The notes beneath the pieces were generated by a model. That model did not search any database. It saw only the letters and a program-made list of their open reading frames with translations, and was not told where the DNA came from. Shown here piece after piece: positions 4,643 through 35,664 of a DNA stretch of 64,000 nucleotides (position 1 is the stretch's first letter; every line of letters begins with the position of its first letter). The stretch is from Anabaena sp. PCC 7108. GTDB lineage: Bacteria > Cyanobacteriota > Cyanobacteriia > Cyanobacteriales > Nostocaceae. The position numbers and the translations under genes were made by a program. The stretch is from the NCBI RefSeq assembly GCF_000332135.1, contig NZ_KB235896.1:4642356-4706355 (forward strand). Direction: 5' to 3'.

Positions 4643-4781
4643 ATTTTCAGATATTTACAATTTTATTAATAAGTAGAGTAACGTAAATAATTAAAGGTTT
4701 GTAGTCAGGTCTAAAGACCTGAAATTCGGGCTAAATCCCTAACTACGAGACAATTTCAGACTTTGTTACCTTACAAAAAAA

Positions 4782-4858
4782 GGGAACAGGGAACAGGGAA
4801 CAGGGAACAGGGAACAGGGAACAGGGAACAGGGAACAGGGAACAGGGAACAGGGAACA
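4782..4858. repeat. heptamer tandem repeat (GGGAACA) x11
   Basis: Eleven perfect head-to-tail copies of GGGAACA. Short tandemly repeated sequences of this kind are well known in heterocystous cyanobacteria. A shorter tract of the same unit lies at 8523-8557. The 7-bp unit keeps an open frame by accident, which produces a spurious ORF here. Confidence 0.95.
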
Positions 4859-8404: not shown

Positions 8405-8522
8405 ACTCTTGATGCTGTTGATTTCATGGATGAAAACCGATCCGATGTCCTTATTCCATCACTCAACAACGCCAAAATCATTTTTAAACCTCATCCAAGT
8501 TGAGAACTGGAGTTTTTCAAAA

Positions 8523-8557
8523 GGGAACAGGGAACAGGGAACAGGGAACAGGGAAGA
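8523..8557. repeat. heptamer tandem repeat (GGGAACA), short tract
   Basis: Four perfect GGGAACA copies followed by a GGGAAGA variant. It is the same unit and orientation as the 11-copy tract at 4782-4858. Confidence 0.9.
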
Positions 8558-30227: not shown

Positions 30228-30548
30228 CGCGGGATAGAGCAGCCTGGTAGCTCGTCGGGCTCAAGACTTAAGATTAACTAAACGCTTATCAGTTAGTCTT
30301 GTATTGGGCGGCACACGAAGTAACTTGTGTGTGTTTATCTGTCAAACTCGGGGAAGCCAATAGCGCGGTAATCCCGAACCAAGCTCCAGAAATGGAGAAG
30401 GTGTAGAGACTGGGAGGCAGACACCCTAACGTTAATGACGAGGGTGAAGGGACAGTCCAGACCACAAACTAGTTTAACTAGGCAACGAAAGTTGTAGTTG
30501 GTAAGCATAACCCGAAGGTCAGTGGTTCAAATCCACTTCCCGCCACCA
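30228..30548 (+). tRNA. initiator tRNA-fMet(CAU) split by a group I intron
   Basis: After removal of the intron, the exons join to a 77-nt initiator tRNA with 3' CCA encoded. Initiator hallmarks are present: an unpaired 1-72 pair (C1, C72), three G-C pairs closing the anticodon stem (GGG/CCC), and anticodon CAU in a CUCAUAA loop. Exon 1 is 30228-30261 and ends with U33. Exon 2 is 30506-30548. The acceptor arm CGCGGGA pairs with TCCCGC except at position 1. The -35/-10 promoter and a terminator flank it. Because CA is repeated at both junctions, the exact splice site could shift by up to 2 nt. Confidence 0.93.
30262..30505 (+). ncRNA. group I intron in tRNA-fMet, 244 nt, no ORF
   Basis: The intron starts after U33 and ends with G (…GTAAG), the group I rule. 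Its core resembles the IC3 introns of cyanobacterial tRNA genes: TCAAACTCGGGGAAGCC, GGTAATCCCGAACCAAGC, AAGGTGTAGAGACTGGGAGG, CCCTAACGTTAATGACGAGG and GTGAAGGGACAGTCCAGA. A strong hairpin (AAGATTAACT paired with AGTTAGTCTT) and a second one (CACAC…GTGTG) precede the core. There is no endonuclease frame inside. Group I introns in cyanobacterial tRNA-fMet are known from established literature. I could not place the P1 guide sequence with confidence. Confidence 0.92.
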
Positions 30549-30731: not shown

Positions 30732-31052
30732 ATGAAAGTAACATTTAGCTTTGTACCACCTGGTGGAGGAGAAGCAAATTATGAGTTGGAATTTGACCTT
30801 CCAGCAATTCCTCAACCAGGGGATTATATTAAAATAATGCGCGATAGTGAAGAGGGAGAAGAAAGTTTTATTGTTCGCAGAACTTGGTGGAATCTTAATA
30901 GCAGCAAGAGTGGAAATAATCTGAAAAATATCGTTGTAGAAGCGGAATTTGCTGAAGGAGCATTTATGGATTCTGCTTCACATAAATTGAGTTTAGAGAC
31001 TTATGCTAGTCGTGGTTTCAAAGTAAAGACTTTCGATAAATCCACATACTAA
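30732..31052 (+). CDS. hypothetical protein, 106 residues
   Basis: A protein I do not recognise. It has alternating strands (VTFSFVPPGGGEANYELEFD, ESFIVRRTWWNLNS, IVVEAEFAEGAFM) and no helix-rich or membrane part. The C-terminus is basic (SRGFKVKTFDKSTY). It lies between the intron-bearing tRNA and the broken homing-endonuclease gene, transcribed in the same direction, and is closed by its own stem-loop. Nothing links it functionally to the intron. Confidence 0.6.
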   Translation: MKVTFSFVPPGGGEANYELEFDLPAIPQPGDYIKIMRDSEEGEESFIVRRTWWNLNSSKSGNNLKNIVVEAEFAEGAFMDSASHKLSLETYASRGFKVKTFDKSTY

Positions 31053-31203: not shown

Positions 31204-31774
31204 ATGGACACAAAGCTGAGAGGAGACATAAGTAATTGGACAAAAATATTTACAGTCATTGCGAGTGAAGCGAAGCAATCCCAGCCCTTGCGATTGCGTC
31301 ATTCCACTGCGTTCCATTCGCAATGACATTGTGTAATTAATTCTGTCCTAGTACTTAGCAGAACAAGCAGCTATTCTTCATGCTTTAAAACGTGGTTGGG
31401 GAGTTTTAAAACCTGTTGGGGATAGACTACCTTACGATTTAGTATTTGACGTTGGGGGAAATTTAATTAAAATACAAGTCAAATATGCTTGGTTTGATGA
31501 ACCTTCTGGTAATTATGTGGTAGATAATCGCCGCACGAAAACAAATAGACGGATAATGGTTAGAGATGTTTATCATTTGTCAGACTTTGATTTTGCGTTA
31601 GCATATGTAGAAAATCTTGACTTGTTTTATATTTTTCCTGTGGATATTTTCATTAGCTATGGAAGTGAAATACATCTTGTAGAGGCTGAAAAAAGACAGT
31701 GCAAACCTCGTTCGGCAGAATATCGCAATGCTTGGGAATTAATTATAAATAATTCAACTTTAGGTGAATGCTAA
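31204..31774 (+). pseudogene. I-Ssp6803I-like PD-(D/E)XK homing endonuclease, MITE-disrupted
   Basis: The plus strand reads MDTKLRGDI from 31204, is broken at 31231, and resumes at 31358 with AEQAAILHALKRGWGVLKPV. The nuclease motif PYDLVFD…IKIQVKY follows, then a basic, Arg-rich middle (NRRTKTNRRIMVRDVYHL). Deleting the MITE (31231-31355) and one copy of the TA duplication gives a continuous 147-codon frame ending at 31774. That is close to the 150 residues of I-Ssp6803I, the PD-(D/E)XK enzyme of the Synechocystis tRNA-fMet intron. As it stands the frame shifts (127-nt insert) and stops inside the MITE. Confidence 0.88.
31231..31355. mobile_element. 125-bp MITE inserted in the endonuclease gene
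   Basis: The element is flanked by TA on both sides (31229-31230 and 31356-31357), the target duplication of Tc1/mariner and IS630-type elements. Its ends are imperfect inverted repeats (AGTAATTGGACAAAAAT against the reverse complement AGTACTAGGACAGAATT, 13 of 17 matching). The inside has a second inverted repeat (TCATTGCGAGTG / CATTCGCAATGA) of the dispersed type seen in many cyanobacteria. It has no coding capacity. Confidence 0.87.
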
Positions 31775-31797: not shown

Positions 31798-32310
31798 CTA
31801 GCCATTGTTCCAATCTTCACCACCTGGTAATTGAGTAAGATAACTATCTATAACATCTGGTAATTCTCTATTTGGATAATTATATGTCATTGCTAATAAC
31901 TCAGTTGCATTTAATATTAGTTGGGGTTTATTTAATATTTGCGAAAGTTGCTGTCTTTTTAAAGTCCCATTCAAAACCTCTAAACTTGCATCTGCTATTG
32001 CTAGTGTAATTTCATCTTCTAGGTAAATTTGCCATTCATCTTGATTGATGTAATGAGATTTTTTGTTATCTTTTAGGTTGAGTTTTTTGATTTCTATCAC
32101 TGAATTACGAATAGACGCAATCCAAGAATTTGTTAATCTTTGCTCAACTTGATTTTTAATTAAATGAATCAGCAATATCTTTAGAAAAGCTTGAATATTA
32201 CGTATAATTGCTTGTTTACTCATTCCCTCTAATTCATCCACAATTGCTAAAGCATCTGTGTAACGTCCTTCTGTAATGCTATTTCTGAGGTCGATTAATT
32301 CTTGTGTCAT
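31798..32310 (-). CDS. DUF29-like protein
   Basis: A 170-residue helical protein that resembles DUF29: LRNSITEGRYTDALAIVDEL, FLKILLIHLIKNQVEQRLTN, SWIASIRNSVIEIKKLNLKD and LEDEITLAIADASLEVLNG. The start is the ATG at 32310; the longer frame to 32361 has an untypical head. The second half (LTQLPGGEDWNN tail) is variable. It is convergent with the broken endonuclease gene (23 bp gap) and divergent from the GTPase-like gene. Function unknown. Confidence 0.7.
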   Translation of the reverse strand: MTQELIDLRNSITEGRYTDALAIVDELEGMSKQAIIRNIQAFLKILLIHLIKNQVEQRLTNSWIASIRNSVIEIKKLNLKDNKKSHYINQDEWQIYLEDEITLAIADASLEVLNGTLKRQQLSQILNKPQLILNATELLAMTYNYPNRELPDVIDSYLTQLPGGEDWNNG

Positions 32311-32462
32311 CTGTATTAACCTCAAGTTATAAATCAGTGAATATTTATTCAACCAGTGCATAATTGTATTTTATAGTTAAATCTGTTTACCTGCCGCACT
32401 CGAAAAAGCAGGTTTTGATCTATTCTGAAGATAAAGCTATCCAAGCGCGGAGAATCAGAATT

Positions 32463-33881
32463 GTGAAGTTACATAAACCAATATTGGTGGGAGGACTAGG
32501 ATTGTCCTTCTCCCTATGGATGTTAGACACTTGGCATGATTCAATAGTTCAAGTGGGAGAATTCGGACTCCTGAGTGCTTTAGCTGTCGGTGGGGGTTTG
32601 TGGTTATTGCAGAAAAATCGCCCCGGTGAGCAGCTAGATGATATGGTTGTAGATAGGGCATCTGTAGAAAGTGCAATTTCTCAAACAGAAGCTGTCATCA
32701 ACCAACTTGCACAAGAAGCCGCAAACCATCCAGCTTTAGAAAGCCTACGCGAACAACTGGTTAAGTTACCCTTAGAGTTAGACAGACGAGAAATTCAAGT
32801 TGCTGTCACTGGTGGAAAGTCGGTAGGTAAAAGTACAGTTATTCAAATTCTCAAGACGTTAGATACAACGTCTCTACATTTTTCAGAAACAGCACCTTTG
32901 TTTACAGAACTGGGTGAAAATTCAAATGTAGCTATTTTGTCAGAAGTGCAAAAATCTGACTTCGTTTTATTCCTGACAAACGGTGATTTGACAGACTCAG
33001 AATTTCAAGTTTTGCAACAACTAAAAGCTGCAAAACAGCCGACATTGCTGGTTTTTAATAAACAAGACCAGTATATGCCAGATGAACGCGCTACGGTTCT
33101 ACAGTCTTTAAAACAGCGAATGTCAGGTAATGTGGTAGCGACTGCGGCTTCTCCCGTTTCTGTGAAAGTTAGAAAACATGAAGCTGATGGTTCTGTGCAA
33201 GAATGGATGGAACAACCAGCACCAGAAATTCAACAGTTAACGCAGCAGTTAGGGGAAGTTTTAGCACAGCAAGGAAAGCAGCTAGTTTGTACGACGACTC
33301 TGCGGAAAGTGCTGTTATTGAAAGCTGAGGCGAAAGATTGTTTAAATGGGGTACGGCGCGATCGCTCTACACCCATCATAGAACAAAATCAGTGGATAGC
33401 TGCTGCTGCTGCTTTTGCTAACCCAATTCCCGCTTTAGATATATTAGCAACTGCGGCTATTAACGCTCAAATGGTGATGGATTTGGGTAATATTTATCAA
33501 CAAAAAATTTCCTTAGAACAAGCGCAACAAGTAGCCGGAACTATGGGAAGCTTAATGTTGAAATTAGGTTTAGTGGAACTTTCTACAAGGGCTGTTACTG
33601 GTATTCTCAAAACTAACGCTGTTACTTTCGTTGCTGGGGGAATGGTGGAAGGAGTGAGTGCTGCTTATTTAACTAGAGTTGCTGGGTTAAGTTTAGTTGA
33701 GTATTTTGAACAGCAAGAAATAGCTTTAGAAACCGGAAATGGTTTGAACCTGGAAAAATTACGCCAAGTTCTACAAACAGTATTCCAGCAGAATCAAAAA
33801 ATGGCTGTTTTGGAAGCTTTTGTTAAGCAAGGTGTGAAACGTTTGTTACCGGAAGCGAAGCCAGTTGAAGTTGTCGGATAA
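32463..33881 (+). CDS. GTPase-like membrane protein (DUF697-type C-terminus)
   Basis: A 472-residue protein conserved in cyanobacteria. Two hydrophobic segments near the N-terminus (PILVGGLGLSFSLWML and FGLLSALAVGGGLWLL) precede a GTPase domain: P-loop GGKSVGKST, and NKQD as the guanine-specificity motif. The C-terminal half (AAAAFANPIPALDILATAAI, MVMDLGNIYQQKISLEQAQQ) resembles the DUF697/YcjF group. It may act on membranes or the cell envelope. I take the GTG at 32463; a TTG at 32364 extends the frame by 33 residues that look non-homologous. A clear terminator follows. Confidence 0.8.
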   Translation: MKLHKPILVGGLGLSFSLWMLDTWHDSIVQVGEFGLLSALAVGGGLWLLQKNRPGEQLDDMVVDRASVESAISQTEAVINQLAQEAANHPALESLREQLVKLPLELDRREIQVAVTGGKSVGKSTVIQILKTLDTTSLHFSETAPLFTELGENSNVAILSEVQKSDFVLFLTNGDLTDSEFQVLQQLKAAKQPTLLVFNKQDQYMPDERATVLQSLKQRMSGNVVATAASPVSVKVRKHEADGSVQEWMEQPAPEIQQLTQQLGEVLAQQGKQLVCTTTLRKVLLLKAEAKDCLNGVRRDRSTPIIEQNQWIAAAAAFANPIPALDILATAAINAQMVMDLGNIYQQKISLEQAQQVAGTMGSLMLKLGLVELSTRAVTGILKTNAVTFVAGGMVEGVSAAYLTRVAGLSLVEYFEQQEIALETGNGLNLEKLRQVLQTVFQQNQKMAVLEAFVKQGVKRLLPEAKPVEVVG

Positions 33882-35545: not shown

Positions 35546-35664
35546 CGCCTACGATTGAAATCGCAGGCTAATAGTCAAAGTCCACTAAAGTGGACTGAAA
35601 AGCAATCTTTAGTCTACTTTAGTAGACTTGAGCTATTAGACAGGGAATTTATTCCCTGGCGGAT
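35546..35664. repeat. cluster of three palindromes
   Basis: Three perfect 18-bp palindromes stand in a row: AGTCCACTAAAGTGGACT (35579-35596), AGTCTACTTTAGTAGACT (35611-35628) and CAGGGAATTTATTCCCTG (35641-35658). An outer pair (CTAATAG / CTATTAG) and AACCGCC / GGCGGATT enclose them. It looks like a REP/MITE-type folding repeat. Confidence 0.75.

Follow-up and report, generated by a model that had tools for sequence, protein, structure and literature searches.

A MITE-interrupted endonuclease gene of the I-Ssp6803I type beside an ORF-less tRNA-fMet group I intron in Anabaena sp. PCC 7108

The tRNA-fMet locus and its interrupted endonuclease gene

Here, we describe a locus of Anabaena sp. PCC 7108 (genome G000) at which a broken endonuclease gene lies 3' of an intron-bearing tRNA-fMet gene; positions are those of the window, the whole 64,000-nucleotide stretch that was analysed. 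The tRNA-fMet 5' exon (30228..30261, +) and 3' exon (30506..30548, +), both recognised by their sequence and by matches to relatives' exons, enclose a 244-nt intron in the anticodon loop (30262..30505, +). ARAGORN calls this tRNA with introns allowed and misses it by default. As had been predicted, the intron holds no ORF and so no endonuclease of its own. It matches the group I intron model RF00028 over positions 1-253 of 253 with 44.7 bits (E 6e-9), under the Rfam gathering score of 50, and searching at gathering returns no match; six of eight related loci searched with RF00028 score at or above gathering. A consensus fold of 14 introns has 69 pairs, 21 of them with two-sided changes that keep the pair, and the model match and this covariation together identify a conserved group I core with the family fold. 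No intronless tRNA-fMet junction was found in the whole genome at up to 3 mismatches, so the intron presumably still splices.

The 5' flank is an L-asparaginase II gene (PF06089; 29221..30174, +), which borders both intron-bearing and intronless alleles and served as the host yardstick. The spacer between tRNA and endonuclease holds a 106-codon ORF with no Pfam match (30732..31052, +), a stretch not covered in G045, G001, G003 and G057. The 3' flank is a DUF29-like gene (31798..32361, -), also found in G057, G001, G002, G003 and G004. This gene and a DUF697 gene at 32464-33881 flank the locus, and a DUF697 relative lies on the same side at 13 of 16 loci in one set and 11 of 15 in another (L064 is in both).

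The endonuclease gene begins with an ATG at 31204, outside the intron and about 655 bp from the tRNA end near 30548, in agreement with the 656 bp given by the original prediction. Its codons 1-9 (31204..31230, +), identical in L049, L050, L051 and L064, end in the target TA of a 125-bp element (31231..31355, +); the remainder (31358..31774, +), identified by its frame and its PF11645 match, follows the second TA copy (TA at 31229-31230 and 31356-31357). Removal of the element and one TA yields a single 147-codon frame, the exact restoration that had been predicted. The rejoined product aligns to positions 1-137 of the 138 in PF11645 at 1.4e-53 and to I-Ssp6803I (PDB 2ost), the sole solved-structure match, at 3e-65 over residues 2-141, with 71% identity to I-Ssp6803I in the multiple alignment of the family; the gene is the only PF11645 match in the genome. 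This near full-length alignment bears out the assignment to the I-Ssp6803I type and refutes the objection that the restored frame does not match the family. Residues E11, D36, Q49 and K51, which we take to be the catalytic residues of the I-Ssp6803I family, are all retained in the rejoined frame; across 14 sequences D36, Q49 and K51 are invariant and E11 is nearly so, with Q11 in 2ost.

Read from its own start, the gene can now encode a 40-residue peptide, since the upstream frame runs into a stop within the element after 40 codons. Apart from the insertion, the window frame carries neither a stop nor a frameshift. Three synonymous and two amino-acid changes, one of the latter at R124, set it apart from L049 and L051; few private changes and no added damage are consistent with a recent loss. 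That the interrupted gene still works, by re-initiation or by frequent precise loss of the element, would fit the undamaged remaining frame. We consider it highly improbable, since translation could restart from a common start codon no earlier than the GTG of residue 63, which leaves out the putative catalytic residues, and R124, nearly invariant in the family, is Cys in the window. Tc1/IS630-type elements, moreover, usually leave footprints.

The 125-bp element and its sister copies

The inverted ends of the element, 31229-31254 and 31332-31357, are 26 nt long and 81% complementary, and RNA of 31226-31362 is predicted to fold with an energy far below that of its shuffles (z -6.9, 0/200). The genome holds at least 26 full-length copies (a lower bound, as 40 of 57 candidates were scored), with TA at both ends in 26 of the 26 examined. 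The 25 other copies are mutually identical and the window copy differs by one base. By a criterion that we set ourselves, interruption of a frame of at least 100 codons, seven of these 25 break a frame, including L009 and L017, which have the same flanks. In four other genomes of the same genus, with 8 candidates scored per genome, no comparable element was present among the matches listed (best E 6.7e-8, against 5.5e-62 here), and matches at 92-94% occur in other genera (G010, G039).

A possible partner was found in one of nine fetched stretches holding only an end-like match: an IS630-family element at G000:C2:2009668-2010732, whose 336-codon frame matches DDE_3 (1.4e-30) and HTH_Tnp_IS630 (6e-5), and whose ends resemble those of the 125-bp element at 85% over 26 bases and 93% over 29 bases. 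With its TA duplication, inverted ends, many copies, IS630 partner and no transposase ORF, the element is an IS630-type MITE, probably mobilised by the element on C2, and its copies look like a young, species-level burst. The precise Tc1/IS630-like insertion that had been proposed to kill the gene is thus supported by TA duplication, inverted ends and IS630 partner; its youth, by the near-identical sister copies, the lack of further damage and an intact gene in the same genus. Gene-breaking MITEs have a precedent in a cyanobacterium of the same order, Anabaena sp. 90, where, in the accessible text of the source, 15 of 147 MITEs break ORFs; the elements there are classed as type II, and their genome has no evident IS partner for them (PMC3542288); the window MITE, unlike these, shares its ends with an IS630-family element.

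A repeat of at least 26 copies might also be misplaced by assembly. We regard such an artefact as barely credible: a TA duplication of its own and unique flanks set the window copy apart, as does one base absent from the other 25 copies, and the genome (5.89 Mb) stands in 3 contigs and is 99.95% complete.

Free-standing and intron-embedded genes

Contigs were scanned with a profile of the family alignment, giving 133 relatives; the best 80 of the 133, 15 loci from related genomes and the window make a set of 96 loci, 88 of them distinct, which under-samples distant relatives and includes many metagenome bins with labels that may be wrong. In this best-80-of-133 set, ARAGORN with introns allowed places the gene 3' of an intron-bearing tRNA at 57 of 96 loci (49 of 88 distinct) and inside the intron at 36 of the 88. 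L182 (Cyanobacteria bacterium D1_MAG_00036) is the only one of the 96 with the gene 5' of such a tRNA, and no intron-bearing tRNA was found by ARAGORN at L164 and L183. Some tRNAs are labelled Leu, Ser or others by ARAGORN and were taken as tRNA-fMet with misread anticodons, as checked by sequence in the relatives of the window.

The same set shows two distinct architectures. The 49 free-standing 3' loci comprise 41 cyanobacteria and eight Bacteroidota (Spirosoma, Arcicella and others), and the embedded forms occur in many phyla, including four cyanobacterial loci. Introns are 602-695 nt long where the gene is embedded and 240-311 nt at free-standing 3' loci, and the free-standing gene usually begins 50-135 bp past the tRNA. 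The split arrangement is also found in named strains of Nostocales, Spirosoma and Arcicella. According to the accessible parts of the source, the gene for I-Ssp6803I of Synechocystis PCC 6803 lies inside a 655-nt tRNA-fMet intron (PMC1995217), as the original prediction held. The window gene thus resembles I-Ssp6803I in sequence over nearly its full length, in its tRNA-fMet locus and in its group I intron, and differs in that its frame is broken and that it stands apart from its intron, on the 3' side of one of 244 nt. An ORF is likewise ascribed to the tRNA-fMet introns of Dermocarpa and Scytonema in the consulted portion of a paper citing older work (PMC5733544); at odds with this, in the sole Scytonema of our set (L146, a S. 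hyalinum bin) the intron measures 244 nt and the gene is free-standing.

Seven distinct free-standing loci of the best-80-of-133 set have spacers above 500 bp (L049, L053, L130, L131, L132, L153 and the window). Those of G001, G045 and G037 share a long frame of 164-179 codons from stop to stop, and that of L153 holds a transposon-like frame (named by eye). In L132 (Cylindrospermum sp. NIES-4074), the opposite strand of the spacer encodes a TumE-like toxin (PF20126, 2.1e-19); another small frame adjoins this gene, and the two are possibly a toxin-antitoxin pair carried as cargo.

In the original prediction, the endonuclease had been uncoupled from its intron and switched off. We reject a recent uncoupling in this genome: among 46 cyanobacterial loci of the best-80-of-133 set, in which sampling favours close relatives, 41 share the free-standing 3' arrangement, 4 are embedded and 1 is free-standing on the 5' side; the free-standing genes are under purifying selection; and they are gained and lost together with the intron (both below). 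The uncoupling is neither recent nor a step toward death, and the MITE insertion is a separate event, later than the exit of the gene from the intron and one of several independent inactivations.

A protein tree of 86 rows was built after dropping rows under 100 aa (L061, L133, L207), the post-element frame of the window and 8 duplicate records, and adding the rejoined window protein and 2ost, with Synechocystis labelled as embedded from what is given in PMC1995217. On this unrooted tree the free-standing label changes 4 times and the embedded label 3 times (shuffled means 27-28), of which starred branches force 3 and 2, respectively. The Bacteroidota free-standing group is separate from the cyanobacterial group, and the cyanobacterial free-standing set (40 rows) has support of 99/79, just under starred.

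At embedded loci the P3-J3/4-P4 core of the ribozyme begins exactly 54 nt after codon 134 in 31 of 36 (50-57 nt in the other five), and in many of them the reading frame continues into the core. Among Nostocales, many free-standing genes carry a degraded, in-frame copy of this core at the same distance, so that the protein finishes in ...SPVQLGEAGF or similar. The best gapless alignments of such tails with the intron at their own locus give 38/50 (L150), 49/71 (L148) and 31/42 (L139). Scored with a profile built from 34 embedded loci against 200 shuffles of each tail, 19 of 41 cyanobacterial free-standing genes beat all their own shuffles, with no offset in 14 and an offset of a multiple of three in the other 5, although kinship among these rows means that the 19 do not count as independent tests. 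Of the fossil-bearing rows, one, L055 (G022), falls outside the main 26-row clade of the protein tree. The other 22 of 41 do not beat all shuffles, including the window (196 of 200 shuffles as high), G001, G045 and G057, and the fossil appears in 0 of 8 Bacteroidota free-standing genes. By eye, nine stretches upstream of free-standing genes bear no resemblance to the 5' side of the intron; that of the window falls in the MITE.

Because the P3-P4 core sequence is common to group I introns, its copy in free-standing genes must come from an intron, and in that cyanobacterial lineage the gene moved from inside to outside. Tree placement suggests that the window branch, with G001, G045 and G057, likewise descends from an embedded gene. 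The exit may have proceeded by tandem duplication and complementary loss, which is a guess. The opposite history has the free-standing gene as the primary form, meeting an ORF-less intron at a shared target, and embedded forms arising later by capture. This is the direction of joining described for phages in the available text of PMC3984707, and it is compatible with an unrooted tree that needs only 3-4 changes between forms and with the fossil-free Bacteroidota genes. We judge it unlikely, given the decayed core at the end of 19 of the 41 free-standing genes from cyanobacteria, 14 in the embedded register and five shifted by multiples of three.

Joint spread, decay and relation to known systems

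Among the matches listed for 100 genomes (own included), the intron is present in 17, and 16 of the 17 have the gene. Of the 82 other genomes with a tRNA match among those listed, one has a trace of the gene, a 20-codon remnant, at the search threshold used (Fisher p 2.5e-16, a value that ignores kinship). G089 has no tRNA match among the matches listed, and exon adjacency was confirmed by reading in 14 fetched intronless loci. On a host tree of 29 genomes (asparaginase; 14 of the 82 intronless genomes, with broken genes scored as present and the G003 remnant as absent), the intron undergoes 11 changes of state, of which starred branches force at least 7. Over 7 independent pairs, gene and intron change together in a mean of 6.7 and oppositely in 0 (sign test median p 0.016, range 0.016-0.031). 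Both the counts and the paired comparison thus show joint gain and loss.

By the Nei-Gojobori method, restricted to pairs with dS 0.05-1.2, the free-standing genes give 487 pairs with a median dN/dS of 0.093 (53 sequences, 8 of them second copies counted twice; L061, L062, L133 and the window excluded), and are therefore under purifying selection. Embedded genes give a median of 0.15 from 3 qualifying pairs, too few for comparison. Between the window and G045, which belong to different genera, the intron has 2 differences in 244, the endonuclease a dS of 0.22 and three flanking genes a dS of 0.60-0.66; between the window and G001, of the same genus, the endonuclease has a dS of 0.10 and the flanks 0.11-0.17. 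Synonymous differences between window and G045 in endonuclease and asparaginase differ at Fisher p 2e-4 (rounded counts). These divergence contrasts suggest that the intron and endonuclease crossed genera as a pair.

An intron tree as proof of transfer was set aside, as host-like groupings survive the AU test on so short a sequence (p 0.40 for G000+G001, 0.16 for G045+G057), and the rough divergence contrasts were relied on instead; with asparaginase data, a window+G045 grouping is rejected (p 1.5e-43). Introns of G022, G014, G029 and G051 had been cut with extra exon bases, which leaves the window-G045 and window-G001 counts unaffected, but pairs among these four enter the median ratio of the comparison. 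As to a vehicle, tblastn with the G001 protein gave no plasmid match and 21 phage records, all below 60% identity and none covering 80% of the query; one IMG/VR contig matched at 42% over 68 residues. These searches support neither a phage nor a plasmid as vehicle.

Low dN/dS and long persistence outside the intron could instead mean that the host adopted the free-standing gene, for example in repair or regulation, with inheritance as its only link to the intron. That reading is very unlikely, given that the gene repeatedly vanishes with the intron, is broken in 4 of 16 copies and, like the intron, is less diverged between genera than the flanking genes.

The relatives present several conditions of this locus. 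The gene lacks the element in G001 (same genus), G045 and G057, so that intact, insertion-free versions exist and the possibility of an insertion shared by all is refuted; the G001 copy has an altered C-terminus after residue 137. The 16 I-Ssp6803I-type copies in the 100 genomes divide into 12 with open frames and 4 broken: the window (MITE), G048 and G094 (frameshift) and G043 (start lost, about 20 codons missing). G051 has the intron without the gene. G003 (same genus) has a clean intronless tRNA-fMet (L064 4932-5008) and the 20-codon remnant (L064 5079-5138), and a match of about 27-29 residues at 50-55% in G030 (E 0.001-0.003) may be a further decayed remnant. All 7 intronless relatives checked carry the presumed target, a 23-bp sequence spanning the intronless junction, without a mismatch.

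Homing elements reportedly pass through a Goddard-Burt cycle of gain, degeneration and loss. Intact, broken, gene-less and intronless-with-remnant loci look like states of such a cycle at one site, which here would run with the gene outside the intron. The homing cycle of the original prediction is supported, by the relatives more than by the window alone, without a recent uncoupling before switch-off.

We consider it highly probable, judging from sequence comparison, that the window holds a disabled copy of a two-part (trans, "collaborative") chromosomal homing unit, whose gene, once inside the intron, was broken by a recent MITE. In an intact unit, the enzyme would cut intronless tRNA-fMet genes at the anticodon region, and repair on the donor template would introduce the intron, with the neighbouring endonuclease gene and the intervening DNA following by co-conversion, so that the spacer contents would be converted along with the gene. 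The endonuclease gene descends from an intron-embedded one, as the core fossil shows in sister genes and tree placement suggests for the window branch. An IS630-type MITE, from what looks like a recent species-level burst, broke the window gene, and the intron is probably retained because the tRNA needs splicing and nothing removes it.

A broader proposal is that the split pair is a stable two-part mobile unit: leaving the intron would have freed gene and ribozyme from overlapping coding, and the spacer would be a slot for cargo (such as the TumE-like toxin gene) carried at every homing event, the exit having occurred at least twice, in Cyanobacteria and in Bacteroidota. We offer this tentatively, as possible rather than probable.

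In the accessible text of a review, collaborative homing is represented by phage cases such as F-CphI with the cyanophage psbA intron site, in which two elements converge on one site (PMC3984707). The tRNA-fMet locus likewise pairs an ORF-less intron with a separate nearby endonuclease gene whose family targets the insertion site, and co-conversion is the expected means of joint spread. Unlike the phage cases as presented there, the unit is chromosomal and both of its parts were once one element. The review, in the same portions, argues for joining, the fusion of a free-standing enzyme with an ORF-less intron into one element (PMC3984707); the ribozyme fossil gives the opposite direction, in which the gene left its intron, and gene and intron are still gained and lost together as two parts on bacterial chromosomes. 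The locus thus bears on how endonuclease genes and introns join, and on whether they part. With loci in the embedded, free-standing, broken, gene-less and intronless state available for mapping onto host trees, trans homing, cargo co-conversion and gain-decay-loss become directly testable. Embedded I-Ssp6803I, the tRNA-fMet intron of some cyanobacteria and phage collaborative homing are covered together by the accessible text of PMC3984707, PMC1995217, PMC3943268, PMC5733544, PMC3610870, PMC6293099 and PMC3542288. Neither the free-standing tRNA-fMet arrangement nor the core fossil turned up in the open-access literature searched, outside which key older papers lie, and we provisionally regard both as new.

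A second, distant kind of relative occurs at eight places in related genomes (L038-L042, L044, L046, L048), with 30-36% identity and frames of 97-240 codons. Elsewhere in the window, 35548-35575 gives a sub-threshold Rfam match to Acido-Lenti-1 RNA (23.7 bits, E 0.056), probably by chance, and the heptamer AGGGAAC forms perfect tandem arrays at 4781-4858 (11 copies) and 8522-8555 (5 copies).
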